Virus record (IMG/VR): IMGVR_UViG_3300032046_000032
Span: 1 to 53,765 of that record
Direction: 5' to 3' (one strand)
Length of the DNA: 53,765 bases
Source of the DNA: a virus
Shown: in pieces, positions 22,513 to 37,364 of the stretch
How the letters are laid out: every line of letters begins with the position of its first letter
How positions within the stretch are numbered: the first letter of the stretch is position 1
Translations under genes and position numbers: made by a program
Notes under the pieces: model-generated
Databases searched by the model: none
What the model saw: only the letters and a program-made list of their open reading frames with translations
Told to the model about the DNA's origin: nothing

Positions 22513-22541
22513 ATTATAAAGGCAAGTCTAAAAAAGCACAA
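22513..22541 (-). promoter_or_regulatory. Promoter for Cas4-like nuclease operon
   Basis: Minus strand: -35 TTGTGC (22541-22536), 17-bp spacer, -10 TATAAT (22518-22513). A TGACCC-type block precedes the -35, overlapping the helicase stop codon. Confidence 0.8.
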
Positions 22542-22545
22542 GGGG

Positions 22546-23868
22546 TCAGCTAGGGACTCTGTCAGCCTGCTCGAGATCCTTGAGAAAGTAGAACACGAGT
22601 TCGGCTTCCGACCACTTTTTGTCAAGTGCGTCGAGGACAAGCCGGTCCGCACGACACGACCATAACAGGTAAATGTTCTTCGATTCCTTAATGTCGATAC
22701 GGTGAATGCGGTCGATCGCTTGCGTCATTTTGATCGTGCTCCAGTGACTATCTAGGAAGACAGCATGCTTAGCCCATTGAAGGTTCAGGCCTTCGCCCAT
22801 CGCATCGATGGTGCCTACCAGCAGCCCTGTGCTGCCTACTGGTCGGCGTTCGCCGCCCATGATAAGGCCGCACTTGAGCTTGTCGGCTAAGTGGAGTGCC
22901 AAGGCTCTGAAGCGGGTGAAGATAACCGTAGGCTCACCTTCATGATCTTCTAGGAAGTCATCTAACCATAGCATCTTGCCTGACGGGCCGGTAAGGCCTA
23001 ACAACGGTGGCCACGCGGCTATTTGCTGCAGCCGTGTAATTAGCGCGAGCACGTTTGGTATAAGTAAGTGCTTGTCTTCGACGGTCACTTCAATATCCTT
23101 CTGCTTCTTAACCGACGCGTAGGCTGCTTGTTGCCTTTCATCCATCGCCACGTGCTCCTCGACAACAATCTTTTCAGGAAGCTCGGGCATTACCTCTTCC
23201 TTTGTTCGCCTAATCATGTAAGGCTTGAGCATCTTGCCGAAAGCAACAGGGTTCTTAGGGCCATCCACCTTGTACTTATCGAAGTATCCTGACGTGATGT
23301 TCAAGTGCCGCGTTACCCAACCCCAGTATGCGGGAAACACTTCAGAGTCAAGGAAGTTAAGCATCGACCACAAGTCTGCGGGGTTCTTCTCCATAGGCGT
23401 ACCTGTCAAGGCAACCTTACGAGCGGCTGTAACCTGCTTGATTGCCACTGTCGTCTTTGCTTTACGGTTTTTGATTCGGTGTGCTTCATCGATGATCATA
23501 CAGTCCCAGACCAAGTCACAGATACCCCTTAGGGTATCTGCATGCAAGAAATCATAGTAAGACATTATCACGTAACCGTCCACGCTGAGAAAGTCATACG
23601 GAATCCTCCTAGGCACGACAATAGGCCAACCCGGGTCCTGGTCGTAGATGGCGTCAATCCATTGCTGTGTTAGGCTTGGCGGGCACGTCACCAAGGTTCT
23701 CCAAGGGAACATCACGTCGCCGTCAGCGTACTTCTCCCTGGCAGCTTTTGCAATCTCGATCGAGGTGACGGTCTTGCCTAGACCGCATTCGTCTGCGATC
23801 AAGCAGTAGGGTAGCCCTTCAAGCGCCCAATCAACTGCTGCTTGCTGAAATGGATAGGGTACTTTCAT
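22546..23868 (-). CDS. SNF2-type DEAH helicase
   Basis: 440 residues from ATG 23868, which shares a base with the previous stop (TAATG) and has GGAG six bases upstream. Motif I is DECGLGKT (residues about 26-33), II IIDEAHRIKN, III ALTGTPMEKN, IV/V VIFTRFRALAL and VI MTQAIDRIHRID. This is a compact SNF2/SSL2-like ATPase of the kind many phages carry next to their recombination genes; it probably translocates on or remodels DNA forks. Confidence 0.92.
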   Translation of the reverse strand: MKVPYPFQQAAVDWALEGLPYCLIADECGLGKTVTSIEIAKAAREKYADGDVMFPWRTLVTCPPSLTQQWIDAIYDQDPGWPIVVPRRIPYDFLSVDGYVIMSYYDFLHADTLRGICDLVWDCMIIDEAHRIKNRKAKTTVAIKQVTAARKVALTGTPMEKNPADLWSMLNFLDSEVFPAYWGWVTRHLNITSGYFDKYKVDGPKNPVAFGKMLKPYMIRRTKEEVMPELPEKIVVEEHVAMDERQQAAYASVKKQKDIEVTVEDKHLLIPNVLALITRLQQIAAWPPLLGLTGPSGKMLWLDDFLEDHEGEPTVIFTRFRALALHLADKLKCGLIMGGERRPVGSTGLLVGTIDAMGEGLNLQWAKHAVFLDSHWSTIKMTQAIDRIHRIDIKESKNIYLLWSCRADRLVLDALDKKWSEAELVFYFLKDLEQADRVPS

Positions 23869-24032
23869 TAACCGCTCCGACGGTGAACTACAACAAATGG
23901 CCAAGTTTTCCACACTGACACATGCCATAACAAGAGTCGAAACTCAAAGAGCATGTCAGCCAGGAGCCATCTCTTAATTTCCTTAGCTTGGTCACTATTC
24001 ATCAATAGACGAATTTGATCTGCGTCATTCAT
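23868..24032 (-). CDS. Small hypothetical protein
   Basis: 54 residues from ATG 24032 with GGAGGCGAA upstream. A charged N-terminal half (MNDADQIRLLMNSDQAKEIK) precedes an amphipathic to hydrophobic segment (LLADMLFEFRLLLWHVSVW). It overlaps the stop of the 51-residue gene (ATGA) and the helicase start (TAATG). It is probably translated for coupling or as a small partner; function unknown. Confidence 0.65.
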   Translation of the reverse strand: MNDADQIRLLMNSDQAKEIKRWLLADMLFEFRLLLWHVSVWKTWPFVVVHRRSG

Positions 24033-24184
24033 TTCGCCTCCTTCACTGTCTTGATAATCGCCGCTACGAGTTTGTCTAGTTCGGTTAGCGGGAACAGCAC
24101 CTGGCAACCGCCGTTAGGGCGACGTACAAACCAGGGCTTGAACAGTGCAGCGATCTGAGAGGACACTGTCTTCTTCTTCTTCAT
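24029..24184 (-). CDS. Small basic hypothetical protein (51 residues)
   Basis: ATG 24184 overlaps the exonuclease stop (ATGA) and the TGA end overlaps the next ATG. The sequence starts MKKKKTVSSQIAALFKPW and contains RRPNGGCQVLFPLTELDKL. Overlap at both ends and the strong codon continuity make it a real gene. Function unknown. Confidence 0.65.
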   Translation of the reverse strand: MKKKKTVSSQIAALFKPWFVRRPNGGCQVLFPLTELDKLVAAIIKTVKEAK

Positions 24185-24855
24185 TTCGTGATCCTTGCGT
24201 ACGTGATCTTCGAGACAGCGTCGTCGAACCTGTCAGTCCATGCGCAATACCCGTATATGATGTCGATGGCTGCTTCCCAGGTAGTCTTCTGGTCCGCAAT
24301 GTAGCGTAGAAGGGCTAATGTGGCGTGGGCGTCTGTCAGCGCGTTGTGCGCGACACCGTCAAATATCAGATTGCATTGCATCAGGGCTTCTCCAAGTTTG
24401 TGCCACTTGAAGGTGCCATACGCTGGACTTATGTCCCCCCTGAATGCCGCGTAGCATAACATAACGTCGAAGATGTTGTCCTTCGGGGGTATGAAGGCGA
24501 TATTCTTCAGACGTAGAGAATGCGACAGCGCCTTGATGTCATAAGACAAGTTGTAGCCAATTAGCTTCTGAGAGGTCCGTAGACTACCTACCTGCGTCCA
24601 GTAGGTGTCGATGGACTTAGCTTCGCTGACCATTTCGTTGGTAATACCGTGGACAGCTGTAGCGCCCCGTTCGATAAGTGCTACAGGCTTTACAAGCGTG
24701 CAGAAGTTGTACCCCGTAGCATCAATGCACGCAAACTGACACACTTCAGGATTAGTCAGTCCCGTCGTCTCACAGTCGAGAACGACGAATGACCCTAACA
24801 GGGTTATTCGTGCTTCCAAGACAGCTTGGTCGTGGGCATATGCTTTGTCTAGCAT
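24181..24855 (-). CDS. DnaQ-like 3'-5' exonuclease
   Basis: 224 residues. ExoI FVVLDCETTG (Asp27, Glu29), ExoII IGYNLSYDIKAL and ExoIII HNALTDAHATLALL (HxAxxD) are intact, the DEDDh pattern. It could proofread, repair or process phage or host DNA or RNA. The ribosome binding site is AAAGGAGTGCC. Confidence 0.9.
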   Translation of the reverse strand: MLDKAYAHDQAVLEARITLLGSFVVLDCETTGLTNPEVCQFACIDATGYNFCTLVKPVALIERGATAVHGITNEMVSEAKSIDTYWTQVGSLRTSQKLIGYNLSYDIKALSHSLRLKNIAFIPPKDNIFDVMLCYAAFRGDISPAYGTFKWHKLGEALMQCNLIFDGVAHNALTDAHATLALLRYIADQKTTWEAAIDIIYGYCAWTDRFDDAVSKITYARITK

Positions 24856-24874
24856 GGCACTCCTTTCATCTAGG

Positions 24875-24947
24875 TAGCGGGGGGTGGACTCGAACCACCG
24901 ACCTCCTGGTTATGAGCCAGGCGAGCTGACCGCTGCTCTACCCCGCA
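24875..24947 (-). tRNA. tRNA with CAU anticodon (Met or modified Ile)
   Basis: Minus strand cloverleaf: acceptor GCGGGG/CCCCGC with a U1-U72 terminal mismatch, D-stem GAGC/GCTC, anticodon stem CCTGG/CCAGG with loop CTCATAA (CAU at 24914-24912), T-arm GGTGG-TTCGAGT-CCACC. A73 is followed by CCT, not CCA, so CCA must be added. The anticodon stem lacks the three G-C pairs of an initiator and the T-loop is elongator-type. An Ile-CAU identity is possible. Confidence 0.9.
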
Positions 24948-25138
24948 TCGTTTTCTTTCTGAATACGTTCAACCTGCTTTGGATCCAGGTCGAGATGTGG
25001 TAGCTGACACTTGCCTTTCTGCCGAATTTTCGTGTCTGTTCTCTGGGCAGCCTGGAGTAGTTCGTGAAAGGTGTCTGCCGTCACGACTAACCAATGTTTC
25101 GTACCGCTTTGCTTTGGGGTGACATGAATTGGAGCCAT
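24938..25138 (-). CDS. Small hypothetical protein overlapping the tRNA
   Basis: 66 residues (MAPIHVTPKQSGTKHWLVVT start, DLDPKQVERIQKENDAG end). The TAG stop lies within the first ten bases of the tRNA. It begins 2 bases after the RuvC-like gene. Function unknown. Confidence 0.6.
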   Translation of the reverse strand: MAPIHVTPKQSGTKHWLVVTADTFHELLQAAQRTDTKIRQKGKCQLPHLDLDPKQVERIQKENDAG

Positions 25139-25140
25139 CG

Positions 25141-25593
25141 CTATCGTTTACTAGTGGTGAGACAATAATAGCGCGCATGACGGTAAGCGTCCTGCGCATG
25201 AATAAGGGTCGATAGCATGGCAGAGTGTTGCTGCAAAATTTCAACACGACCAATGACCGAGGGATCTTGAAGTACGAGCAGCGGCTCCGGGGTGCACAAA
25301 CTGGCGAAGGCTTCCACGATTCCGATTATACGTACCGACGGAAACACCGAGCCAACTTGCTCCATTGCACGTCCAGGGCGAAGGTGGAAGGATTCGATTA
25401 CTACGACCTCAGGCAGTTGCGGCTTACCTTGATTGGTAAACGTGCCGTGGAGCAGGGCCGGGAAGAACGATAGTCTGTCCTCCCAAGGTATCTGCCACAC
25501 GCCTACTACCTGAAAGTCGTTACTCCTGTCGTCTGCTACGATAAGGCAGACGCCTGTGGTGGTGCCTGGATCTACGCCAACGATAGACGCCAT
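25141..25593 (-). CDS. RuvC-like Holliday junction resolvase
   Basis: 150 residues, RNase H fold: VGVDPGTTTGVCLI (Asp8), EVVVIESFHLR (Glu), and HAQDAYRHARYY near the C-terminus with the last Asp. It would resolve branched replication or recombination DNA before packaging. The start is set by AGGAGGGCAT. Its leader contains three hairpins. Confidence 0.85.
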   Translation of the reverse strand: MASIVGVDPGTTTGVCLIVADDRSNDFQVVGVWQIPWEDRLSFFPALLHGTFTNQGKPQLPEVVVIESFHLRPGRAMEQVGSVFPSVRIIGIVEAFASLCTPEPLLVLQDPSVIGRVEILQQHSAMLSTLIHAQDAYRHARYYCLTTSKR

Positions 25594-25611
25594 ATGCCCT
25601 CCTAAGGGGAG

Positions 25612-25742
25612 TGCAGGCAGATCTCCTTCGATGCGTGAGACCTGCCTGCAGATGCCGCCCCACCGTCAAACGAAGGCCGTTAGGCCTCCGACACAAGTGG
25701 GACAGCTCAGCGAGTGGGAGGGTCGTTCACCACCTCCCACTC
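25612..25742 (-). promoter_or_regulatory. Three-hairpin leader of the RuvC-like gene
   Basis: Stems are TGCAGGCAG/CTGCCTGCA (25612-25650), AGGCC/GGCCT with flanking pairs (25671-25690) and GAGTGGGAGG/CCTCCCACTC (25712-25742). All lie between the HTH gene stop and the RuvC-like ribosome binding site. No T-run follows any of them. Confidence 0.75.
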
Positions 25743-25769
25743 ACAGTGAAACAACGCGGAGGTTAGGCG

Positions 25770-26213
25770 TTATTTCTGAAAGGGCGACGGCGCGACCACC
25801 TTGCGGATGGGCTTGCCGTGGCTGTCAAGGCCTTTGGCCTTCAAATCCGCGGCGCGCTTGATCCGGTACTGCTTCTGGCCAGCGTAATCGTACCGCTGCT
25901 CGAGAACGATGCCGAGCGGCTTCAGGGCTACGATCACCTTCTCGTAGTCGGACGGTTTGACGTGGATGACCCACGCTTTGCCGGCCGCGGAAGCCTTGCC
26001 ACCGGCTCTACGAACCCGTGGGGTGACCTTGTATTCGTCCAAGTGGGCTTTCGTGAACGTCCACTGGCCGGCGTCGTTCTTGGCACCTTTTAGGGTGCCC
26101 TCACGAGCCAGCGTGCGGATGCGCATCTCGCCGAGGCCCAAATAGAGCGCGGCGGTCCGCAGATCCATAGGATCTGGGAACTTGACACTGCTGAGGTCGA
26201 TCTGAGTAGACAT
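25770..26213 (-). CDS. HTH protein of the phage-specific paralogue family
   Basis: 147 residues. An excisionase/MerR-like helix-turn-helix (LRTAALYLGLGEMRIRTLAREGTL) is followed by a wing and a C-terminal domain with a tyrosine strand (YRIKRAADLKAKG). It is one of six related proteins in this genome (27279, 29893, 31022, 38049 and a weaker match). Likely a DNA-binding regulator. It has its own promoter at 26259-26287. Confidence 0.7.
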   Translation of the reverse strand: MSTQIDLSSVKFPDPMDLRTAALYLGLGEMRIRTLAREGTLKGAKNDAGQWTFTKAHLDEYKVTPRVRRAGGKASAAGKAWVIHVKPSDYEKVIVALKPLGIVLEQRYDYAGQKQYRIKRAADLKAKGLDSHGKPIRKVVAPSPFQK

Positions 26214-26258
26214 GACTTGCTCCTTTTCTGAACTGAGAATGTTTTGGACTACACGCTC

Positions 26259-26287
26259 ATTGTAAGCTAAGCGCGCATAAAAAGCAA
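26259..26287 (-). promoter_or_regulatory. Promoter of HTH gene 25770
   Basis: Minus strand: -35 TTGCTT (26287-26282), 17-bp spacer, -10 TACAAT (26264-26259). It lacks the CAATGACCC block. Confidence 0.7.
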
Positions 26288-26303
26288 GAGAGGAACTTAG
26301 GTC

Positions 26304-26519
26304 TCATTTACCATGGTTTTTGTGCTCCTTTCCACTAACTAAGTCCCAAAGTTCTTTGGGAGCATCACCTGGCATAGATTTAGGATCCAGGTGGACATGT
26401 TCGGCGAACCACTCTAGGGCTCGTTGGTGCCGGAATAAGGTACGGTTAGTGAAGAAGGCTTCAGCAGCATTAGCTAGCACTACCGCAGCGAGTATAATGA
26501 CTACCGTATCGTTGCTCAT
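26304..26519 (-). CDS. Small membrane-anchored protein
   Basis: 71 residues with one N-terminal membrane segment (VVIILAAVVLANAAEAFF) and a charged cytoplasmic tail containing HQRALEWFAEHVHLDPK. The start overlaps the preceding basic protein's stop (ATGA). Function unknown; small anchored early proteins often act on host targets. Confidence 0.65.
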   Translation of the reverse strand: MSNDTVVIILAAVVLANAAEAFFTNRTLFRHQRALEWFAEHVHLDPKSMPGDAPKELWDLVSGKEHKNHGK

Positions 26520-26647
26520 TTACGCCTCTTTGAGCCCTTCTTAGCACGCTGGCGGTTCACTTTCACGCTCGCCTTTGCTCTCTTGAGACGCTTCTTCTCT
26601 TTGGCTTCAGCAACCTTGTCGTGCCAGTAACAGGGTGTGTCAGTCAT
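26516..26647 (-). CDS. Small highly basic protein (43 residues)
   Basis: ATG 26647 with AGAAGGAGCCACA upstream; the TGA overlaps the next ATG. The chain MTDTPCYWHDKVAEAKEKKR then continues with Lys/Arg every second or third residue. It is the first gene of a transcript from promoter 26704-26732. Nucleic-acid binding is suggested by charge only. Confidence 0.65.
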   Translation of the reverse strand: MTDTPCYWHDKVAEAKEKKRLKRAKASVKVNRQRAKKGSKRRK

Positions 26648-26703
26648 TGTGGCTCCTTCTATATAGGAAATAGGCAGCCGTACGCCTTGTTTAGTTATGA
26701 TTC

Positions 26704-26741
26704 ATTATAATAGCATTCTCGGTTTTTCACAAGGGTCATTG
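26704..26741 (-). promoter_or_regulatory. Early promoter (CAATGACCC family)
   Basis: Minus strand: CAATGACCC, -35 TTGTGA (26732-26727), 17-bp spacer, -10 TATAAT (26709-26704). A leader stem AGGC/GCCT lies at 26672-26687. Confidence 0.9.
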
Positions 26742-26752
26742 ATGTAATCAAC

Positions 26753-27295
26753 TTAGGTCGTAGGCTCGGAAGCCTGCGACATCACTTCCGCGCAAAGCAT
26801 TAGATAGTGAAACAACTCAGGCTTCACCCTGTTACGCATGCGGCCGTCCTTCAATGCATGGTATAGGTATGACGCCCAGCTAGGGTTCCGTTGCCACAGG
26901 ACGACAAACGCGCGACGTGAAATTGCCCAGTCCCATTCCCTTGGAGGCTCTACAGCTTGGTACGCTCGGCGGACAGTATCCGTGTATGCTAGGATGAAAT
27001 CAGCGGCACTGTACTCGATCGCGTGGATGCCAACGCTCGTCGTTTGGTTATAAGGTATCGCCCTAAGCAGGTTGAGCACACGCCAGATGCGAACGGGTTT
27101 GTCAGTTCCCCGGTGCATGTACACCTCAAGTCTTGCGCAGCAGAGTCTTGCTGTGATGAGTTGGCCCCACATCCCTCTGCAGCTTACCCGAAGCGACTGC
27201 CAAATAGGCTCGTATGCCATCGCAGGCCATGACTGCTCGGGGTATTCTTCAAGCAGTTCGCTGTCATACACGTGGAACTTAGGCCTCGTGTACAT
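26753..27295 (-). CDS. Hypothetical protein
   Basis: 180 residues if ATG 27295 is used (GTG 27304 adds three residues). It is unrecognised, mainly alpha-helical, with WQSLRVSCRGMWGQLITARL, WRVLNLLRAI and SRRAFVVLWQRNPSW. Its start overlaps the end of the HTH gene. The ribosome binding site is weak, so it relies on coupling. Confidence 0.6.
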   Translation of the reverse strand: MYTRPKFHVYDSELLEEYPEQSWPAMAYEPIWQSLRVSCRGMWGQLITARLCCARLEVYMHRGTDKPVRIWRVLNLLRAIPYNQTTSVGIHAIEYSAADFILAYTDTVRRAYQAVEPPREWDWAISRRAFVVLWQRNPSWASYLYHALKDGRMRNRVKPELFHYLMLCAEVMSQASEPTT

Positions 27296-27671
27296 TGTGT
27301 ACACGCTTTTTCGGCTTAGCTACCTTAACCGGGGCTGTGCCGATGACGCCCTTAACAGGGTTCCATGTTCGCATGGTCTCTACCACTCCAGCAAGGCCGT
27401 TCTCTGTAAGCACGATCTTGACGGCCTCGTACTCGGTACGTGTCATGTAAACGACGTACTTGTTACGTCCGTCAGCTCTGTGTGTTTGCCGCTTGGACTG
27501 GCTGAGGAAGAGTTTGATGTCTTCGTCAGTGATTACGTGTCGCTTCACAAGCGACTCAGGGACTATAGGCTCCAGCCCTGATACTAGTTGTCCCTTACGG
27601 ATCAGCGAGCGGACGTAGGCGGGCGTAAAGCCCATCACCTTCGCCGCTTCAGCAATGTTATGTTTTGCCAT
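27279..27671 (-). CDS. HTH protein of the paralogue family
   Basis: 130 residues. Helix-turn-helix AAKVMGFTPAYVRSLIRKG at the N-terminus, a wing (VSGLEPIVPESLVKRHVITD), then RADGRNKYVVYMTRTEYEAV, a motif shared with the protein at 31022 (RADGRTKYFLYAT). The C-terminal end is Lys-rich. Probably a small DNA-binding regulator. Confidence 0.75.
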   Translation of the reverse strand: MAKHNIAEAAKVMGFTPAYVRSLIRKGQLVSGLEPIVPESLVKRHVITDEDIKLFLSQSKRQTHRADGRNKYVVYMTRTEYEAVKIVLTENGLAGVVETMRTWNPVKGVIGTAPVKVAKPKKRVHNVHEA

Positions 27672-27879
27672 CTTGTATCTCCTTTAGGGCGTGTAGGACG
27701 CTACGCATCCCTGCACGCTCAACTAACACAACTAGGACGTCGAACGCGGTTTTATCCGAGCCTGTGATTGGTATCGTACGCAGGTCAATTATGTCCGGAG
27801 ACATAATTGCAGGCTTCGTAGAGTCCAGTGCTCGATCGATACGTACTGCATCTCCTAGCAATAGTCTGCGGGCAGGCAT
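27658..27879 (-). CDS. Hypothetical protein
   Basis: 73 residues (MPARRLLLGDAVRIDRALDS start). The C-terminal helix VLVVLVERAGMRSVLHALKEI is amphipathic. It is translated between two overlapping or abutting genes (27880 upstream, 27671 downstream). Not recognised. Confidence 0.6.
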   Translation of the reverse strand: MPARRLLLGDAVRIDRALDSTKPAIMSPDIIDLRTIPITGSDKTAFDVLVVLVERAGMRSVLHALKEIQDGKT

Positions 27880-28020
27880 TTATGACCCACCGTTCAGGTA
27901 ATGGACACGAGCAGCCGCAGACTCGCGGTCGGCATGATCGCTGTCTATGTGCCATTTGCCAGACGGGTCGTAGAATCCAACTGTCCACAGGCCTGGTTCG
28001 GACTGAATGTAGACGTACAT
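27880..28020 (-). CDS. Conserved small phage protein (46 residues)
   Basis: ATG 28020 with GAAGGAGAGAGCT upstream; the stop abuts the next ATG. The sequence MYVYIQSEPGLWTVGFYDPS, KWHIDSDHADRESAAARVHY, LNGG recalls a small protein family I have seen widely in phages, with conserved Trp, Ser-Asp-His and LNGG. Function unknown. Confidence 0.75.
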   Translation of the reverse strand: MYVYIQSEPGLWTVGFYDPSGKWHIDSDHADRESAAARVHYLNGGS

Positions 28021-28057
28021 AGCTCTCTCCTTCTATATAGTTACTTGATGATGCCTA

Positions 28058-28096
28058 ATTATAACATGAACCAAAGGTTTTTCATAAGGGGCATTG
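28058..28096 (-). promoter_or_regulatory. Early promoter (CAATGCCCC variant)
   Basis: Minus strand: CAATGCCCC, -35 TTATGA (28087-28082), 18-bp spacer, -10 TATAAT (28063-28058). It drives the 28020 gene. Confidence 0.9.
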
Positions 28097-28112
28097 ATAC
28101 AATCGACTTTGG

Positions 28113-28373
28113 TTAATCTGGTAGGGGCTGTCTACTATAGCGGACTTGGCCGCCATCGCGAATTACCTGACGGACTAAGGCGTCGAACTCCGCTTGAGCC
28201 CTATCCAGCTTTTCGTAATACATGTCCGAGTGTCGCATCAGAAAACTGTTGCCGGGGTCAAGACTCACGACGACACACTTGACGCGGTACCCGTTACCGT
28301 ATTCGAAAACGTCTACGGTAGCTTCGTAGGGCCTGTGGGCGTCTTCAAACGTAGCGATTACACGGTTATTCAT
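28113..28373 (-). CDS. Hypothetical protein
   Basis: 86 residues: a beta-rich N-terminal part (VIATFEDAHRPYEATVDVFE) and a helix LDRAQAEFDALVRQVIRDGG. The ribosome binding site is GAAAGGAGAGTAGAAG. Not recognised. Confidence 0.65.
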   Translation of the reverse strand: MNNRVIATFEDAHRPYEATVDVFEYGNGYRVKCVVVSLDPGNSFLMRHSDMYYEKLDRAQAEFDALVRQVIRDGGQVRYSRQPLPD

Positions 28374-28402
28374 CTTCTACTCTCCTTTCGTAGGTTGAAG
28401 CG

Positions 28403-28735
28403 TTATGGGCGGTATTGCATACTTGCCCAATTGGGGAACAAGGTTCTTGCAGTGTCTGCATCTAGCTTATCTCCTGCGCCCAAGACATCTTCAGGCCTAT
28501 GCAGCTGTGTGCAGTACCAAATGTAATCAGGGTTAGCCTGTTCTTCGACCTTGAGTTGCGCTAGCCCAGGCCAACCAATGTAGGCAGCCCAGTCCCCGAT
28601 TGCACCTTCTTTGGCAACAATGTGAACGATAGCAACGTTAGGGTCTCTTACCAATTTGGTAAAGAACTCCTTTGCTTCACACTCTGGTAACTCTGCAACT
28701 GTACACGATTTCACTTCCGTATGGTGGATTCCCAT
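28403..28735 (-). CDS. Hypothetical protein
   Basis: 110 residues, acidic, Trp-rich (AAYIGWPGLAQLK, PDYIWYCTQLH, FPNWASMQYRP). The start follows GAAAGGAGACTGAGA. Its leader carries a long 13-bp-stem RNA element and a tRNA-like T-arm. Not recognised. Confidence 0.65.
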   Translation of the reverse strand: MGIHHTEVKSCTVAELPECEAKEFFTKLVRDPNVAIVHIVAKEGAIGDWAAYIGWPGLAQLKVEEQANPDYIWYCTQLHRPEDVLGAGDKLDADTARTLFPNWASMQYRP

Positions 28736-29751: not shown

Positions 29752-29909
29752 GTTACCTCCACAGGCGTCGGCAGCTCGATCGGGATTGGCTTTGGAACGG
29801 GCCAATTTGGTACTGCGATTGGCTCTTCCTTGGGCTTCGGCACCCTCTTTGGAATGGGCTGGGGAATCGGGCGCTCAGTGATTCTTACATGTTTACCAAT
29901 CTGGGACAT
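29748..29909 (-). CDS. Small proline-rich protein (53 residues)
   Basis: Starts at ATG 29909 (TGAGGTACCAAG upstream). After MSQIGKHVRITERPIPQPIP the chain repeats Pro-X-Pro-Lys/Ile almost to its end, a likely extended polyproline rod. Overlaps both neighbours. Function unknown; possibly an SH3-ligand-like or membrane-spanning spacer, but no partner is evident. Confidence 0.6.
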   Translation of the reverse strand: MSQIGKHVRITERPIPQPIPKRVPKPKEEPIAVPNWPVPKPIPIELPTPVEVT

Positions 29910-30168
29910 CTTGGTACCTCATTTCTTTGAGCAATACGCGGACTGCGTCTTCTTCTTCTGCAGTGAGACGCAGCTTTACAGTACGGCGTACTCTGCGGGA
30001 TTCCATGTACGCCTTAACGCTTTCTTTGGTAAGGTACACTTTGTTTACGCCAGCATTGATTGGCTCAGTATGATCGACCACCAAGCGTCCCCGTTTCACG
30101 AGTGCGCGTACGAAGTGGTGATCGCAACCGATCCTTAAACTGGCTTCTTTGATACTTATGTAGTCCAT
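29893..30168 (-). CDS. HTH protein of the paralogue family (short)
   Basis: 91 residues. MDYISIKEASLRIGCDHHFV is a classic excisionase-like HTH, with NKVYLTKESVKAYMESRRV as the wing and following helix. The C-terminal part (LTAEEEDAVRVLLKEM) differs from its paralogues. Probable DNA-binding regulator. The ribosome binding site is GGAGAGACCCT. Confidence 0.75.
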   Translation of the reverse strand: MDYISIKEASLRIGCDHHFVRALVKRGRLVVDHTEPINAGVNKVYLTKESVKAYMESRRVRRTVKLRLTAEEEDAVRVLLKEMRYQDVPDW

Positions 30169-31021: not shown

Positions 31022-31366
31022 TTACTGTGGAACAGCAACTGCAACGAGCTTCGCAGCTTTAGCTTTGGGGACGTACGCACGCTTCAGGTTGACGCGCAGC
31101 CCTGTGGGCAGCGTGGCAATCTCTTCGGCGGTAGCGTACAGGAAGTACTTCGTGCGCCCGTCCGCGCGGCCGAACCGCTTGCCGACGCCTTTGCGCCAGG
31201 CTTCGAGGTCCGTACCTAGGATCTCGTGGCGCACACCTTCCTTGCGTCCTTCGATCGGCGCTAGTACGCTAATCAGCGCACCAGTCTTGATCGCGTGGCG
31301 AACGTACTGGGCGGTCAGGCCCACTTTCTTCGCCGCGGTTGTGATGGTGTACACGTTCGATTTCAT
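31022..31366 (-). CDS. HTH protein of the paralogue family
   Basis: 114 residues from ATG 31366 (AAAGGAGAACATC upstream). Helix-turn-helix YTITTAAKKVGLTAQYVRHA, a wing with EGVRHEILGTDLEAWRKG, then RADGRTKYFLYATAEEIATL shared with 27279. Basic tail. The AWRK motif is shared with 38049 on the other strand. Confidence 0.75.
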   Translation of the reverse strand: MKSNVYTITTAAKKVGLTAQYVRHAIKTGALISVLAPIEGRKEGVRHEILGTDLEAWRKGVGKRFGRADGRTKYFLYATAEEIATLPTGLRVNLKRAYVPKAKAAKLVAVAVPQ

Positions 31367-31418
31367 GATGTTCTCCTTTCTATATAGGTTTCGAGCAGTC
31401 TTGTAGCTCGATAAACAA

Positions 31419-31456
31419 ATTATAACCTGTCTCCTATGAACTTCATAAGGGGCATT
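31419..31456 (-). promoter_or_regulatory. Early promoter (CAATGCCCC variant)
   Basis: Minus strand: CAATGCCCC, -35 TTATGA (31448-31443), 18-bp spacer, -10 TATAAT (31424-31419). Leader hairpin CGAGC/GCTCG (31392-31410). Confidence 0.9.
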
Positions 31457-31460
31457 GCGG

Positions 31461-31868
31461 CTAGCTCTTTTCTGGATTGTGGAAGCCGTATTTCTCTGCA
31501 ACAGCCCGGTAAAGTGGAAGGCCGTACGGCGCGTACTCTGAAAAGTTGACGAGGTCGTCTTCGAGGATCCATAGCCACATCTTGACGACGCCATACATTA
31601 GCGATGATGAGATCCCTCGCCCGTTGATGGCCTTCTCAAATGCAAACGCCAGATCTTCTGAGAGCTGACGGCGTACGGCTTCTTCTGTCCACGGTAGCGC
31701 CGTCCAACTGTTAGGATCTGCTTTGTAGCCAAACTTCTCTACTTCGGTGACTGGGAAGAAGCTTACGAGGCGTGAGTAGTCGCGGCTGTCGATTATTGCA
31801 CATGTTCGACGGTCATAGCCAACAGTACCGTCTTCCACAGCTTTCAAGACTGCGTCTTGAGTTAGCAT
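31461..31868 (-). CDS. Hypothetical protein
   Basis: 135 residues: MLTQDAVLKAVEDGTVGYDR, a helix QLSEDLAFAFEKAINGRGIS and MWLWILEDDLVNF. Not recognised. The ribosome binding site is AAAGGAGAGTCAC. Confidence 0.65.
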   Translation of the reverse strand: MLTQDAVLKAVEDGTVGYDRRTCAIIDSRDYSRLVSFFPVTEVEKFGYKADPNSWTALPWTEEAVRRQLSEDLAFAFEKAINGRGISSSLMYGVVKMWLWILEDDLVNFSEYAPYGLPLYRAVAEKYGFHNPEKS

Positions 31869-31883
31869 GTGACTCTCCTTTCG

Positions 31884-32060
31884 TTAGTCGACTGGGTCGA
31901 GCTCGTCGCGTTCGTTTTCGCGGCGAGCCAATTCTCGGGCGAATTCCGCCCAGCGAGGGTTGCTCTCGTCGATCATCTGAGCGAGCTGTTCGTCGGTGTA
32001 GGACTCTACGGGGTCCATTCGGTTCCTGAATAGGAAGTCCGCGATTGGTTCTGTTATCAT
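31884..32060 (-). CDS. Small acidic hypothetical protein
   Basis: 58 residues from ATG 32060 (AAAGGAGACGT upstream). MITEPIADFLFRNRMDPVES then DEQLAQMIDESNPRWAEFAR. Helical and acidic. Its leader holds a two-layer hairpin. Not recognised. Confidence 0.65.
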   Translation of the reverse strand: MITEPIADFLFRNRMDPVESYTDEQLAQMIDESNPRWAEFARELARRENERDELDPVD

Positions 32061-32095
32061 ACGTCTCCTTTCTGTGGCTTGGTTACTTAGGTAAA

Positions 32096-32175
32096 GCGCA
32101 CATTGAGGGGCCCTATCGTCACACATGCCCGACGTTGATAAGGCCCCGTGATGTACGCTCAGCACAGGGCTGAGT
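32096..32175 (-). promoter_or_regulatory. Two-hairpin leader
   Basis: Outer GCGTACAT/ATGTGCGC with inner GATA-GGGGCC type stem (32107-32147), plus CTCAG/CTGAG (32159-32175). It separates the stop of 32208 from the ribosome binding site of 31884. Confidence 0.75.
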
Positions 32176-32207
32176 GTTATATCGATTCTGGTGTCAGCTG
32201 TTAGCTG

Positions 32208-32399
32208 TCAGGCGTCGATGCCGGCTTCGCGTTTGTCTGCGCATGTGTCGCAGTAGTACCCACTAGGCCGGCCTTCAGTGTGCTTCCTGTAGCGCCACTT
32301 CCATGTAGGCCCTGTGCGTGGCAGCTTCTTTCCACAACTGCATCGCCACGTACTACGTGTTGACGCGCGGGTATGGTTTCCGTTCTTAGTCCTAGTCAT
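32208..32399 (-). CDS. Small zinc-ribbon-like basic protein
   Basis: 63 residues from ATG 32399 (AAAGGAGAGAAACA). Cys pairs WRCSCGKKL and YYCDTCADK frame a basic middle (WKWRYRKHTEGRP). Probably binds zinc and nucleic acid. Confidence 0.65.
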   Translation of the reverse strand: MTRTKNGNHTRASTRSTWRCSCGKKLPRTGPTWKWRYRKHTEGRPSGYYCDTCADKREAGIDA

Positions 32400-32417
32400 T
32401 GTTTCTCTCCTTTTGGT

Positions 32418-32454
32418 CGATCGGGTCGATCGTAAGTCTGTGGCATGTGCCACA
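32418..32454 (-). promoter_or_regulatory. Two inverted repeats between genes
   Basis: Palindromes CGATCG..CGATCG (32418-32432) and TGTGGCA-TG-TGCCACA (32439-32454), just upstream of the AAAGGAG for 32399. They may act as DNA operators or leader hairpins. Confidence 0.65.
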
Positions 32455-32505
32455 TTCGCAAGCGCGCTACCGTCTAGGTGGTACGCTAGCGGTTGGGGTC
32501 ATGCG

Positions 32506-32772
32506 TTATGCAAAGATACCGCTTTCCAGCATACGCGCCAACATATGTTTGCATACTATGCCTCGGTACGCATGGTCAGGGCACTCGCACCGCCAAATGG
32601 TGGTGTGGTACTTGGTGATGCTTGCCTGGTACGTGTCGCTGGTGAGTGCCAAGACGAGTGCGCTAGCCAGCCTACTAGGATCGTAACGCTCAGGCCGCTT
32701 TTCTATCAGCGTGAGAGCGAACTCGTGGTTGGATGCTATGCGCTCTTCTGATGTGAAGGGTTCAGGGTGCAT
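32506..32772 (-). CDS. SWIM zinc-finger-like protein
   Basis: 88 residues from ATG 32772. The C-terminal part TIWRCECPDHAYRGIVCKHM has the SWIM pattern CxC(n)CxH. SWIM domains bind DNA or proteins. The gene overlaps the preceding stop by 11 bases and has GGAG 10 bases upstream. Confidence 0.75.
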   Translation of the reverse strand: MHPEPFTSEERIASNHEFALTLIEKRPERYDPSRLASALVLALTSDTYQASITKYHTTIWRCECPDHAYRGIVCKHMLARMLESGIFA

Positions 32773-33037
32773 CTGCACTGAACTCCGTATGCAGGTGCGA
32801 TATCCTGTCGATGAACACCTTGCCGGTGTTGTCAACGGTGATCTCGGCTACGTACTCTTCGAGGATGTCGACACCGAAGCCCTGGTCGAAGGTGGCCATC
32901 ACCGGGTCGGAGTCTTGCTCGAGATCATTGTGCTCGCAGGTCTTGATGACGACGTTGAACGCGTCGCAGTCATCTGGGAGCTTGGCAAGCATCGCATCCA
33001 GTGCGTCGTGTGCTGCTTTCTTCTGATTCGTGTTCAT
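32762..33037 (-). CDS. Hypothetical acidic protein
   Basis: 91 residues from ATG 33037 (GAAGGAGTACT; ATGA overlap with the previous gene). Acidic: PDDCDAFNVVIKTCEHNDLE, FGVDILEEYVAEITVDNTG. Not recognised. Confidence 0.65.
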   Translation of the reverse strand: MNTNQKKAAHDALDAMLAKLPDDCDAFNVVIKTCEHNDLEQDSDPVMATFDQGFGVDILEEYVAEITVDNTGKVFIDRISHLHTEFSADAP

Positions 33038-33297
33038 AGTACTCCTTCGTTGACGTGGTCGATCGCGAAACAGGTTTTCATCACGAGGTCGTAACAGCTC
33101 ACGTGCATCTCGTCTTGCGCATTCCAATCCATGTCCGCAAGGATTTGATCCTGCGGGAGCTCGAGCTCGGCACGCGTCTCTGCATCAGGCTCGAAGGCGT
33201 CGGTCATCAATGCGACCGCAATCTTGTCGCCATCTTCGATCTTGCCACCGCATACCTTACACTTGCGGCTGATACTGGTAAGTGGGGATACGCTCAT
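33034..33297 (-). CDS. Small zinc-ribbon protein
   Basis: 87 residues from ATG 33297 (GAAAGGAGAGAAACA). CKVCGGKI near the N-terminus, a middle rich in Glu/Asp and HVSCYDL as the second half-site. Zinc binding likely; function unknown. Confidence 0.65.
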   Translation of the reverse strand: MSVSPLTSISRKCKVCGGKIEDGDKIAVALMTDAFEPDAETRAELELPQDQILADMDWNAQDEMHVSCYDLVMKTCFAIDHVNEGVL

Positions 33298-33322
33298 TGT
33301 TTCTCTCCTTTCGATTCGATTC

Positions 33323-33799
33323 CTAGTTATATCGAATCCAGAGCTCCTGTTCATCGCGCCAATCGAACAAGACGCTCTCAAAGTCGCAGTGAACCGGTAG
33401 TAGTGCTCGTGCGGCTTGCTCGTAGATCTCTTTGGCGGTCTCATATTCATCTGGGTATGTCTCAGATGTTTTAGGTGGGGCAGGTCTAAGTTCTCCTGTA
33501 GCCTCGCTTATGCGATACGCGAATGGAGGCGCGAAGTAGACGCGCTCACAATACTTGTATCCTTCGATCTCTTGATGTATCGCGCTGATATCATCATGAG
33601 ATACGATCTCAGGATCTTTATTGAATGTTACCTTGTTACTTATGGGGGCGATCACGTCGACGTTTGCTATGTCAAAATCAACAGCGCACGCGTCGCCGAT
33701 GCTCTCAACAGCTTCGACCGCAGCTTTGAGCAGGGCTTCTAGAGCAGAATCTTGCTCTTGCTCTGTCTCTACGTATATGGTGATACGTTTCTGGGACAT
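33323..33799 (-). CDS. Hypothetical protein, paralogue of 36902
   Basis: 158 residues. The second half shares PEIVSHDDISAIHQE and the C-terminal FDWRDEQELWIRYN with the rightward gene at 36902. The first half (about 65 residues, ITIYVETEQEQDSALEALLK) is similar to the start of 34188. A two-module early protein; function unknown. It is driven by a CAATGACCC promoter. Confidence 0.65.
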   Translation of the reverse strand: MSQKRITIYVETEQEQDSALEALLKAAVEAVESIGDACAVDFDIANVDVIAPISNKVTFNKDPEIVSHDDISAIHQEIEGYKYCERVYFAPPFAYRISEATGELRPAPPKTSETYPDEYETAKEIYEQAARALLPVHCDFESVLFDWRDEQELWIRYN

Positions 33800-33851
33800 T
33801 GCTTCTCTCCTTTCTATATAGGTTCCAAGCAGTATGGTAGCTTGATAAATA

Positions 33852-33890
33852 ATTATAACATGGCTCCTATGATTTACATAAGGGTCATTG
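33852..33890 (-). promoter_or_regulatory. Early promoter (CAATGACCC family)
   Basis: Minus strand: CAATGACCC, -35 TTATGT (33881-33876), 18-bp spacer, -10 TATAAT (33857-33852). Leader hairpin CAAGC/GCTTG. Confidence 0.92.
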
Positions 33891-33912
33891 AACGGATCAC
33901 TTTATTGATCCG

Positions 33913-34101
33913 TTATATGCCTACCATCTTGCCGAAGCCTGTATGCTGGCGCTCGGTCTCAATGCGCCATTCGTCTAGGATTTCGTCAACTTGAACCCAG
34001 TCGCCGTCGATATCGTACTGATCGCGCATCCAAAGTGCAATCAGCTTGTTGCCGAGCTTAGCGAGGGCCCAGGCAATCTTGCTCTTTAGCCGTGCCTTCA
34101 T
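33913..34101 (-). CDS. Small hypothetical protein
   Basis: 62 residues: a basic amphipathic N-terminal helix (MKARLKSKIAWALAKLGNKL), then an acidic part QYDIDGDWVQVDEILDEWRI. The ribosome binding site is AAAGGAGAGACGCA after TGAAC/GTTCA copy 3. Not recognised. Confidence 0.65.
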   Translation of the reverse strand: MKARLKSKIAWALAKLGNKLIALWMRDQYDIDGDWVQVDEILDEWRIETERQHTGFGKMVGI

Positions 34102-34126
34102 TGCGTCTCTCCTTTGCTACTGCAGC

Positions 34127-34179
34127 TGAACGGCTGCATGATGAGATGCACTAGCGGTGGTGCTAGTGCATCTGGTTCA
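34127..34179 (-). promoter_or_regulatory. TGAAC/GTTCA leader element, copy 3
   Basis: Outer TGAAC (34179-34175) with GTTCA (34131-34127); inner perfect 12-bp stem AGATGCACTAGC/GCTAGTGCATCT. Confidence 0.85.
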
Positions 34180-34187
34180 CGCATCTG

Positions 34188-34595
34188 TTACATGCAAGTG
34201 TACTCCGCATCATCGTGATATTCGCAATCGATGTCGCCGAAGCTCACGAGCAGGGCGCTGATCTTATGTTCCCATTTATCAACGAGCTCTGCAGTGAACT
34301 TATCAGGGTCCTTCGCAACGATCTTGATACCGCGGATATCTTCGCCATCGATCTCTGCATCGCGGTAGTGTCCTGCGATCATGTCGTGGAGCTCGTATTC
34401 ATCGATCTGAACAATGTTCTTCATATCATCGAGCCACTTATACGGCTCGGCTCCTTCGACGACGGCTTCGATATCGACTGCCTGTATCTGTGCGTCGGAG
34501 ACCTTCGCAACGGCTTCGATGCATGCGCGCTGCAGCTTCGTTACATCATCTGCTGAGCACGTTTCCATGGCTAACGTTACCTTGATCTGAATCAT
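34188..34595 (-). CDS. Hypothetical acidic protein
   Basis: 135 residues from ATG 34595 (AAAGGAGGCATAAC). MIQIKVTLAMETCSADDVTK is related in pattern to the start of 33323. Acidic with DEYELHDMIAGHYRDAEID, ending CEYHDDAEYTCM. Function unknown; acidic early proteins can mimic DNA but this is not shown here. Confidence 0.65.
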   Translation of the reverse strand: MIQIKVTLAMETCSADDVTKLQRACIEAVAKVSDAQIQAVDIEAVVEGAEPYKWLDDMKNIVQIDEYELHDMIAGHYRDAEIDGEDIRGIKIVAKDPDKFTAELVDKWEHKISALLVSFGDIDCEYHDDAEYTCM

Positions 34596-34652
34596 GTTAT
34601 GCCTCCTTTCATATAATATCGATTTCAAGCAGCATGATAGCTTGATAAAATA

Positions 34653-34691
34653 ATTATAACATGGCTCATATGATCTACATAAGGGTCATTG
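34653..34691 (-). promoter_or_regulatory. Early promoter (CAATGACCC family)
   Basis: Minus strand: CAATGACCC, -35 TTATGT (34682-34677), 18-bp spacer, -10 TATAAT (34658-34653). Leader hairpin TCAAGC/GCTTGA. Confidence 0.92.
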
Positions 34692-34702
34692 ATATGAGCA
34701 AC

Positions 34703-35296
34703 TTATTGGTCGCTCTCCAGGCTAATCTCGAATGCGTTACGATCAGCTTCAGGGCCTAGCGGTACCTCTACGGTTGCGGGTACGGCTCTCGGCGCTAAAG
34801 CGTCGAGAGGCTTACGCCAGATCCATGGATTGTCGTATCCAATGCTGACTTCAGGGTATCCTGCTGCGTTGACGCTGGTACCTTCGACATACAGCCCTGC
34901 GATTGCGACTAGCTCGAAGCCTGCGGCGAATGCATGGCGTACATGGTTTACATGCAACGTACCGCAGCCCTTTACCGTGAGCAGGGCACCAGGCTTCAGG
35001 ACCCTGTATACTTCAGCGTACGCGGCTCTGAAGTCGTTATCCCCTGCATCTGATTCTAGGAAACAGCTGCCGAGCGCTTCGCTGAAATGGTCGCTCGGCA
35101 TCTCAGGCATACGCGCGTAGTCGCCAACGTAATTATACGTTACGCCGTCGCCGGATACGCTGCCATCATCGGATATAGAAATAGCGTCTTCGGCTTCGTA
35201 GCATGCCGTGCCGCCGAGATCCAGTTTATGGTACTGGGCCATGTTACGCGGTAACTTATGCGTCGCGTAACGTTCGCCATCCTTTCTACGTCTCAT
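34703..35296 (-). CDS. SAM methyltransferase-like protein with truncated N-terminus
   Basis: 197 residues from ATG 35296 (AAGGAGAGAAGCG). The C-terminal half has the class I methyltransferase post-core pattern AAYAEVYRVLKPGALLTVKG and a following strand FELVAIAGLYVEG. Motif I is reduced to HKLDLGGTACYEAED, without the GxGxG loop. Either a degenerate methyltransferase or one with an unusual SAM site. The substrate is unknown. Confidence 0.6.
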   Translation of the reverse strand: MRRRKDGERYATHKLPRNMAQYHKLDLGGTACYEAEDAISISDDGSVSGDGVTYNYVGDYARMPEMPSDHFSEALGSCFLESDAGDNDFRAAYAEVYRVLKPGALLTVKGCGTLHVNHVRHAFAAGFELVAIAGLYVEGTSVNAAGYPEVSIGYDNPWIWRKPLDALAPRAVPATVEVPLGPEADRNAFEISLESDQ

Positions 35297-35355
35297 CGCT
35301 TCTCTCCTTATATATAGGTTCCAGGCAGATGGATGCCTGGTTTTATTATATAATA

Positions 35356-35394
35356 ATTATAATACGGATCCTATGTTTTACGTAAGGGTCATTG
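35356..35394 (-). promoter_or_regulatory. Early promoter (CAATGACCC family)
   Basis: Minus strand: CAATGACCC, -35 TTACGT (35385-35380), 18-bp spacer, -10 TATAAT (35361-35356). Leader hairpin CCAGGC/GCCTGG. Confidence 0.92.
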
Positions 35395-35426
35395 ATGCGA
35401 TCGGTTAATTGATAACATATCATTGG

Positions 35427-35708
35427 TTACCGCCGCTTGGCTTCCTTCTCTAGATCCAATCCTTTGATGCAATCGATGCAATGGAACTCGTATTCATGGG
35501 GCCACTGCAGCCGGCTCATGCGACCGTAATCAAGCGGCAGCAACTGTTGACAGCATGGGCATCTGAAGCAAGGACACGCTGTATCCTTGGCTCTCTGCAA
35601 CGCGAGCCGTCGCAAGACGACCGGGTTCTTTATCTGTCTGCCTTTGCTCGTATCCCAATCGTCCGGCATTGATGGCCATATCTTATACCGTAGCTGGTTC
35701 CTATTCAT
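35427..35708 (-). CDS. Zinc-binding hypothetical protein
   Basis: 93 residues. Cys pairs CPCFRCPCCQQLL and FHCIDCIKGL with a basic N-terminus (MNRNQLRYKIWPSMPDDWDT). A probable zinc ribbon. The ribosome binding site is AGGAGCTTATCAT. Confidence 0.65.
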   Translation of the reverse strand: MNRNQLRYKIWPSMPDDWDTSKGRQIKNPVVLRRLALQRAKDTACPCFRCPCCQQLLPLDYGRMSRLQWPHEYEFHCIDCIKGLDLEKEAKRR

Positions 35709-35751
35709 ATGATAAGCTCCTGGTTACGTTAGATATGTGGTTCATAATATA

Positions 35752-35790
35752 ATTATAATCTGGATCCTATGTTTTCTACAAGGGTCATTG
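35752..35790 (-). promoter_or_regulatory. Early promoter (CAATGACCC family)
   Basis: Minus strand: CAATGACCC, -35 TTGTAG (35781-35776), 18-bp spacer, -10 TATAAT (35757-35752). Confidence 0.92.
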
Positions 35791-35794
35791 AAGG

Positions 35795-36467
35795 GGGCAG
35801 TTTCAGGCAGACTGCTTGGGGACTTAGCCGAGTTGTTGATCAAATGATCAACAACTCTTCTCATATGCGGATTCTTACCAGGACATATATGTATAATACT
35901 TAATAATGAATATTATCTTCGATAATTATACCATTGATATGCATTACAGAATCATCAAGAGAAAAACATAGATTATTATAATTGATTATCATTATATTGT
36001 ATACTTAAGTACCCTGTTAGGGTACTTGAGCATCCTGCTTAGGACTTACGCTAGGGGTGTTGCCACGGTGGACGGGGGTAGGGAGAGGGGACGGTGAAAG
36101 AGCTCCCGTGTCACAAGCAAGCACCCCGCATTTTACCCCAGCCCCAGCCGCAGTTCGTACGTCTGCAGCCACGCCCGGCGGCATGCAACAGAGCGCAATG
36201 CGACTGGAAGAAGATATAATGGCCCAGTACAGTCACATGGCGGGGAGCCTGAGGGTCGATCGGGATCCAAGATCAGGGCGCATACTTTCCGCTAGACGGC
36301 CACCTAGCGGGCAGCCGCGGTCGTAGGTCATACATAGCTCTGAAACTGGTCACAGATTTTTACCATCTGCCGGGTGCCATGCGGTTCGCCTGACGCCCAA
36401 CGCTGCGCGGCGCCAAGGCCCTGTGCTGTGGTAGCGTGGCTTCGGATGCGGTCGCGGAGACTGGATC
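35795..36467. other. Non-coding pivot region: AT-rich DNA and palindromes (origin candidate)
   Basis: No gene is supported here. It contains an 11-bp-arm palindrome GTTGTTGATCA/TGATCAACAAC (35832-35855), a strongly AT-rich stretch (about 35880-36005) and a 9-bp-arm inverted repeat AAGTACCCT/AGGGTACTT (36007-36027). A GC-rich part follows (36050-36460) whose longest open frame, 36057-36326, has a TTG start and no ribosome binding site. This is the obvious place for an origin or control site; that is inference. Confidence 0.5.
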
Positions 36468-36674
36468 TTATGATTTGTTCCTGTTACTTATCGCGGCGTC
36501 TGACGAATATGTAAGGAACAGATGATAATCATCCATGATCTGTGCATCGGTCATCGTATCGTAGGCGACGTCCTCTCCTGTATCGATGACTCCCGAGATG
36601 TACTCCTCGACCATATCCGCGGCGATATCGTTGGCTACGAGGATCTTTCTGATCCGTGCTAAGCGCTTATCCAT
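36468..36674 (-). CDS. Small hypothetical protein
   Basis: 68 residues from ATG 36674 (AGGAGAGAATCA). Acidic, helical: LARIRKILVANDIAADMVEE, DAQIMDDYHLFLTYSSDA. Leader hairpin GGATCCA/TGGATCC. Driven by promoter 36723-36752. Confidence 0.65.
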   Translation of the reverse strand: MDKRLARIRKILVANDIAADMVEEYISGVIDTGEDVAYDTMTDAQIMDDYHLFLTYSSDAAISNRNKS

Positions 36675-36722
36675 TGATTCTCTCCTAGGATCCACATACG
36701 ATGGATCCAGATTATATATATA

Positions 36723-36761
36723 ATTATAACAGGGATCCTAGGATTTTTACAAGGGTCCTTG
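36723..36761 (-). promoter_or_regulatory. Early promoter (CAAGGACCC variant)
   Basis: Minus strand: CAAGGACCC, -35 TTGTAA (36752-36747), 18-bp spacer, -10 TATAAT (36728-36723). Confidence 0.88.
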
Positions 36762-36817
36762 CGGGCATCACCTTCGTGCGGGGCGCCGTGGGGTACGGAT
36801 CAACAAAGAGATCCGAT

Positions 36818-36856
36818 CGATGACCCTTATGAAGATCATATGATCTGTATTATAAT
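36818..36856 (+). promoter_or_regulatory. Rightward early promoter, with palindromic spacer
   Basis: CGATGACCC, -35 TTATGA (36827-36832), 18-bp spacer containing the palindrome GATCATATGATC, -10 TATAAT (36851-36856). Leader hairpin GGTTACAT/ATGTAACC just before AAGGAG. Confidence 0.9.
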
Positions 36857-36901
36857 TATATATAATCAGGTTACATCGATATGTAACCAAGGAGCGAATC
36901 A

Positions 36902-37252
36902 ATGAACGTAGCATATCGTAAGGATCCAAGGATCGTATCGCATGACGATGCAGCCGCGATACATCAAGAGGTAGGGTACATAGATCCCGCAACCGGTATC
37001 GAAGTACCCTATGATCACTGTATCCGCGTATCGTTCGCGGAGCCGTTCGCCGCGTATAAGGTTCCAGGCGATGATCCAGCAGCTGCGGAGGGCTTGGCTC
37101 TCGAGATGTATGAACAGAGAGCCGATGAATACGAAGCCGCGAAGGTAGCTTACGAAGCGTTCGCGGTAACGGAGCTCGGCATCGAGCTCAAGGAGCCGTA
37201 CACCTTCGATTGGCGCGATGAACAGGAGCTCTGGATTCGATATAACGATTAG
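36902..37252 (+). CDS. Hypothetical protein, paralogue of 33323 C-terminal half
   Basis: 116 residues. RIVSHDDAAAIHQEVGY and the C-terminal FDWRDEQELWIRYND are shared with 33323 on the opposite strand; the N-terminal module of that protein is missing here. The ribosome binding site is AAGGAGCGAATCA. Function unknown. Confidence 0.65.
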   Translation: MNVAYRKDPRIVSHDDAAAIHQEVGYIDPATGIEVPYDHCIRVSFAEPFAAYKVPGDDPAAAEGLALEMYEQRADEYEAAKVAYEAFAVTELGIELKEPYTFDWRDEQELWIRYND

Positions 37253-37325
37253 GTAGCCGAAGATCCGATCTCCCCGAGCGGATCTCTGTTTGCTGCCTTG
37301 GCACCTCGCATTAAGTTGATTCGAT

Positions 37326-37364
37326 CAATGACCCTTATGTTGATCATATGATCCATATTATAAT
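37326..37364 (+). promoter_or_regulatory. Rightward early promoter, with palindromic spacer
   Basis: CAATGACCC, -35 TTATGT (37335-37340), 18-bp spacer containing GATCATATGATC, -10 TATAAT (37359-37364). Leader hairpin GGATACAT/ATGTATCC. It is a near duplicate of the 36818 promoter and leader. Confidence 0.92.

Follow-up and report, generated by a model that had tools for sequence, protein, structure and literature searches.

Ten near-identical early promoters of a bacterial virus share an upstream block that differs among its relatives

The 53,765-base virus record IMGVR_UViG_3300032046_000032 (W in the comparisons below), taken whole as the window of this analysis, is a bacterial virus without earlier description, and it carries ten near-identical copies of an early promoter, each ~55 bp long, of which eight point leftward and two rightward. 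The shared consensus, AAgttGATnnnaTCAATGMCCCTTRTG-N18-TTATAATTAT, joins a conserved block, CAATGMCCC, to a weak -35 hexamer of the TTRTRN type and a perfect TATAAT. The reading we favour, at about even confidence and from sequence comparison, is that the ten sites are early promoters for the host sigma factor that carry a lineage-specific control element, which is probably bound by a phage helix-turn-helix (HTH) protein and more probably serves activation. The early and replication genes of W run leftward from 36.8 kb and its late genes rightward from ~39.5 kb.

The sites are named here by the first position of the block. On the minus strand these are P26741 (26700-26754; TTGTGA, 17-bp spacer, TATAAT; first ATG 26647; 56.6 bits), P28096 (28055-28109; CAATGCCCC, TTATGA-18-TATAAT; first ATG 28020; 60.5 bits), P31457 (31416-31470; again CAATGCCCC and TTATGA-18-TATAAT; first ATG 31366, that of gene g48; 48.5 bits), P33890 (33849-33903; first ATG 33799; 66.0 bits), P34691 (34650-34704; first ATG 34595; 64.1 bits), P35394 (35353-35407; first ATG 35296; 57.7 bits), P35790 (35749-35803; first ATG 35708; 55.0 bits) and the outermost leftward copy, P36761 (36720-36774; CAAGGACCC; first ATG 36674; 55.8 bits). 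The last stands back to back with the first rightward copy, P36818 (36805-36859, plus strand; CGATGACCC; ATG 36902; 61.5 bits), which is followed by P37326 (37313-37367, plus strand; ATG 37411; 63.7 bits). A first-pass annotation of the sequence had listed all ten, with 31456 for 31457 as its only misplaced coordinate, and had correctly described the variants CAAGG at P36761 and CGATG at P36818; the other eight copies are exact CAATGMCCC. A small early gene begins 75-96 bp after each site, with 43-65 bp between TATAAT and the ATG and a ribosome-binding site in every case.

Scoring was done with a two-part matrix at a reporting threshold of 8 bits, against a null of 40 third-order Markov genomes (80 strand-scans). 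The ten sites scored 48.5-66.0 bits (37.7-62.3 bits when each was left out of the matrix in turn), compared with a null maximum of 13.2, and no further site in the whole W genome exceeded the threshold. Similarly, CAATGMCCC occurs eight times in the 53.8-kb genome against 0.57 expected. The first-pass annotation had named an equal frequency of the block away from TATAAT as grounds for rejecting its reading; across the W genome, none of the eight exact copies (0/8) lies away from TATAAT and these promoters, and the reading is not refuted. A stoperator array was rejected on the same count.

The -10 is TATAAT at all ten sites, and the spacer measures 18 bp at nine of them and 17 bp at P26741, as that annotation had it. 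This arrangement, TATAAT preceded at 16-18 bp by a -35 hexamer, is that of a sigma70/sigmaA-type promoter, though the -35 itself is poor, only 2-4 of its six positions matching TTGACA. It is also the more variable part: six hexamers occur (TTATGA and TTATGT three times each; TTGTGA, TTGTAA, TTGTAG and TTACGT once each), against an invariant CCCTT, G4 and A2 in the block, and the claim that the block is steadier than the -35 is thus borne out. An extended -10 (TGn) is present at four sites. The block begins 33 bp upstream of TATAAT (32 bp at P26741), abuts the residual -35 and ends 24 bp before the -10. Its distance to the -35 is the same at 10/10 sites, and because the sole indel, at P26741, falls between -35 and -10, the block is tied to the -35. 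This rigid link, a -35 of low quality and a -10 without mismatch together suggest that sigma region 4 is assisted by a factor bound near -45 to -38.

Conservation reaches further than the annotation had described, upstream as far as block position -13 (AA, G-8, T-6) and, on the other side, within the spacer (C19, TA, GGA). The information per position is high at -13/-12, -8, -6, 0 to 13, 15 to 28 and 32 to 41; it falls to near background further upstream than -24 and, save for scattered hairpins, in the leader. Such a peaked profile, with flanks and leaders at background while CAATGMCCCTT and TATAAT are fixed, speaks against the idea that a single promoter cassette spread recently and that the similarity reflects shared descent, the block having no function of its own. 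Clear paralogous cassettes do exist (P36818/P37326, 89% identical over 57 nucleotides; P31457/P34691, 79% over 76 nucleotides), as do the duplicated genes g55 and g63; however, an orthologous promoter in a relative, described below, retains GACCCTT and TATAAT, and we regard recent duplication as a highly improbable explanation.

The mechanism that we propose would run as follows. The ten sites would be the shared promoters of an early regulon, read by the main sigma factor of the host through the perfect TATAAT and the weak TTRTRN -35. The lineage-specific control site would be CAATGMCC, roughly between -45 and -38, with contacts on its flanks that reach about -58 and the spacer, and it would be bound by a phage winged-HTH protein of the MerR/BldC/Xis type, most likely g48, itself expressed from one such promoter. 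Placed next to sigma region 4, the bound protein would offset the poor -35, and stimulation is preferred over repression for this action. Either as activator or as repressor, it would couple all these early units in one feedback loop.

Because the spacer between -35 and -10 is conserved as well, which is a repressor position, block and spacer could instead form the operator of a phage repressor that silences all the early promoters later in infection or confers superinfection exclusion, like the operators of Cluster A phages. Near-palindromes (TTGATnnnATCAA, GATCATATGATC) in a few sites fit such an operator, as does the fold of g48, which is like that of the phage P2 DNA-binding protein (4lhf) and MerR. 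However, the weak -35 would be left unexplained, every site is at a promoter with no stoperators, and a search of W detected no integrase or resolvase. Moreover, dyad symmetry is not significant over the ten-site set (best-centre score p = 0.145 by column permutation) and was dropped as a general feature because it is unproven. We consider a repressor operator distinctly unlikely, although the sequence alone cannot tell activation from repression.

The comparison with relatives bears on the favoured reading, that of a control element bound by a phage protein. A search of IMG/VR with the portal and terminase proteins yielded K (contig 3300035659_000022, 51.8 kb, portal 77% identical), L016, L007 and shorter pieces. 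In the matching region, K carries six copies of an early promoter of its own (four leftward, two rightward) and L016 three. In these promoters the -10 and the divergent layout of W are retained and the -35 is TTGTAA-like, but the block, at nearly the same place, differs: it is CAAAAGAG, and the promoter reads CAAAAGAG-N3/4-CTTGTAAA-like -35, followed by TATAATTAT, with 35-37 bp from block to TATAAT. The W matrix found no block in the K and L016 promoters (block scores -1.2 to 6.4). In L007 it found two diverged W-type sites, with totals of 24.6 and 23.1 bits (95% null 13.9) and a block part of ~15; one of them (422, minus strand) is orthologous to P31457, sharing GGAGACAGG-N-TATAAT and keeping GACCCTT and TATAAT. 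Thus, the chassis is conserved between W and K/L016 while the block has been exchanged. Scans of IMG/VR with exact and near-exact W-block patterns gave three hits only, on contigs without sign of the early promoter family. The K-type pattern matched 74 loci, nearly all of them single chance hits, and at least two copies were found only in K and L016.

These results also bear on whether a phage protein is needed at all, since the block might simply enlarge the sequence that host RNA polymerase recognises, through the C-terminal domain of the alpha subunit, through sigma region 4 or through some general factor of the host, as in the extended early promoters of T4. A perfect TATAAT, the TGn at four of ten sites and the need of early genes for immediate reading by host RNA polymerase all agree with this, and the AAAAGAG of K resembles an A-rich proximal UP subsite. 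However, the W block (CAATGACCC) is not A/T-rich, and relatives whose core proteins are ~75-80% identical have a wholly different block at another spacing, whereas host polymerase contacts should change little between relatives, though their hosts may differ. The change of block between such relatives suggests a phage protein rather than host RNA polymerase, and we judge recognition by the host alone to be unlikely.

The candidate for such a phage protein is g48 (31022-31366, minus strand), a 114-amino-acid MerR/BldC/Xis-like winged-HTH protein encoded by the first gene behind P31457. All four phages (W, K, L016 and L007) have one block promoter whose first downstream gene encodes an HTH protein of ~107-125 amino acids with the segment RADGR(N/T)K(Y/F). 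The type of its recognition helix goes with the type of block: QY(V/I)RHAI in W and L007, and FRVRSAIRKGDL in K and L016. Identity is 58% between g48 and its L007 counterpart and 64% between the K and L016 proteins (K_b/L016_a), compared with 31-40% between the types. A scan for further homologues added only the distant L045 (31%), in which a clear block family was not seen. The AlphaFold model of g48 has an N-domain pLDDT of ~90 and shows the HTH, beta-hairpin wing and third helix of BldC/Xis/MerR-like winged-HTH proteins, and Foldseek matched it at probability 1.00 to the MerR-family HiNmlR, the P2 protein 4lhf, RacA, mycobacteriophage Xis and BldC.

Several points weigh against this reading. 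The Foldseek E-values are weak (best 0.008), and dyad symmetry is, as noted, not significant over the set. The HTH gene is located behind the promoter that its product would bind, so that promoter and gene are inherited together, and both the triple-HTH protein g68 and the terminase small subunit show the same split of W/L007 from K/L016; since neighbouring genes split likewise, the match of block and HTH type can be plain co-inheritance (n = 4). The binder is also ambiguous because W encodes several HTH paralogues: g37 (27279-27671, minus strand; P28096 unit), 39% identical to g48 over 77 amino acids, g46 (29893-30168, minus strand), which is HTH_17-like, and g33 (25770-26213, minus strand; P26741 unit), an HTH_17 protein above the Pfam cut-off (E 9e-7). 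Finally, strong early promoters of the T4 kind are conserved beyond -35 and -10 without a phage activator (PMC2988021).

The proposal of the first-pass annotation that the block is a regulator-binding site therefore stands in part. A promoter class with an extra element is well founded, and the block swap in K and L016, the weak -35 and the HTH protein that changes in step make binding likelier, while co-inheritance leaves it unproven. Among the HTH proteins, which the annotation had suggested for pull-down, g48 is favoured, and the triple-HTH protein g68 (38853-39302, minus strand) is less likely: it is present in all relatives with its recognition segment conserved, so a block that differs among them is unlikely to be its target. 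The further claim that the block couples all early genes goes too far: promoters of another type precede the g68 gene and the HTH gene at 38049 (that of g68 being a better sigma70-like one, TTGTCA-17-TATAAT), and most early genes could be reached from the block promoters only by read-through.

More tentatively, in a family of environmental phages the -35-adjacent element and its small MerR/BldC-like protein may govern the whole early programme and be exchanged as a pair between lineages, so that every lineage would have a private orthogonal early-promoter code laid on an otherwise unchanged host-sigma promoter. If so, these phages would hold natural matched pairs of block and HTH protein on one promoter chassis, with which one could test how small MerR/BldC/Xis-like proteins contact sigma region 4 and how private regulatory codes evolve in phages. 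The block sequence and the RADGR(N/T)K HTH protein would also give a handle for locating early regions in uncultured phages of the group.

The annotation had further listed a looser copy at 22541, which did not hold up as an eleventh member. This promoter-like site (22506-22544, minus strand), within the 115 bp that precede the exonuclease gene, has a 17-bp spacer and shares with the ten only the CCCTTGTG core and TATAAT; the CAATG block is absent and the score is below the reporting threshold. The equivalent gap in K contains GGCCCTTCC...TTATAAT, and 22541 probably represents a promoter that has this -35 core but falls outside the block class. A core without the block shows the two to be separable. 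Its TTTTTTAGACTT resembles the motif TTTTWGACYC found before the terminase small-subunit gene, but at +15 rather than +18. That conserved promoter-like motif, which begins 18 nucleotides ahead of TATAAT (or TATACT), lies at 39451-39482 (plus strand) in W and at 6906, 5581, 20182, 1860, 1340 and 2220 (all plus strand) in L007, L016, K, L012, L023 and L024, respectively. In several of these phages TATAAT is ~12 nucleotides ahead of the ATG, a distance that would give a leaderless transcript. The g68 gene is divergent from this motif, and its product is a natural candidate to bind it.

Hairpins stand near the 5' end of ~7/10 leaders in W, with compensatory changes between paralogous leaders. The hairpin GGTTACATCGATATGTAACC of P36818 (36869-36888, plus strand) is compensated in the P37326 leader (37378-37397; GGATACAT/ATGTATCC), and CGAGC..GCTCG of P31457 (31391-31411, minus strand) becomes CAAGC..GCTTG in the leaders of P33890 and P34691; others lie at 33824-33845, 35320-35341 and 36684-36708. 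Because few occur in K and L016 leaders, they were rejected as a defining part of the promoter class. The genes g55 (33323-33799, minus strand) and g63 (36902-37252, plus strand) encode paralogous early proteins (44% identical over 115 amino acids); each of the two follows directly on a block promoter, and they lie on opposite strands. Directly upstream of P35790 is a perfect palindrome with 13-bp arms, GAGTTGTTGATCA-AA-TGATCAACAACTC (35830-35857), in a ~600-bp region (35.8-36.45 kb) without a convincing gene.

The W genome (52% GC) encodes a T4-type large terminase, portal, major head protein, scaffold and endolysin, together with DNA polymerase, a primase-like protein, helicase and exonuclease. 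Its 28-52 kb part had no near match among 50,697 phage records, and Genome_contigs scans with the portal and HTH proteins found no relative. A tRNA-Met (CAT) gene (24873-24947, minus strand) lies amid the replication genes. Genes for GTP cyclohydrolase I, a QueE-like radical SAM protein, PTPS/QueD and QueC at 13119-17406 (minus strand) form a 7-deazaguanine (preQ0) set, which suggests modified phage DNA. An A/T-rich stretch with ATATGCACATATGC-type repeats (37880-38010), upstream of the HTH gene at 38049, may be origin-like or regulatory.

Among known systems, the early promoters of T4 (sigma70; UP, -35, TGn and -10) are likewise present in many copies before small early genes and conserved beyond -35 and -10 (PMC2988021). 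They differ in their good match to the -35 and UP consensus, whereas W has a poor -35 and an upstream element, CAATGMCCC, that contains GC, is not A/T-rich and varies between related phages. T4 middle promoters, which depend on sigma appropriation, share with W a phage-specific box and a near-perfect -10, their -35 being weak or missing; however, the MotA box replaces the -35 at 12 +/- 1 bp from the -10 (PMC2988021), while the W block starts 33 bp (32 at P26741) before TATAAT and lies upstream of a residual -35. Cluster A mycobacteriophages also pair multi-copy directional sites of a phage-specific consensus with a DNA-binding protein, but their stoperators are mostly away from promoters (PMC6550527), unlike the sites of W, where 10/10 are at promoters and an integrase was not found. 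The 19-20 bp spacer with dyad of MerR-regulated promoters is not seen either, the W spacer being 17-18 bp. The predicted N-terminal fold of g48 resembles the MerR-like winged-HTH family of BldC and phage Xis (TM-score on target 0.7-0.8; PMC5859096), to which g48 adds the C-terminal RADGR(N/T)K(Y/F) segment; a clear 9-bp direct repeat was not demonstrated in the W sites. Overall, the W promoters would work like a class II-type activated, or a commonly repressed, early regulon. Common early promoters of this sort are a known kind of system; the information lies in the swapped block and the HTH protein that goes with it.

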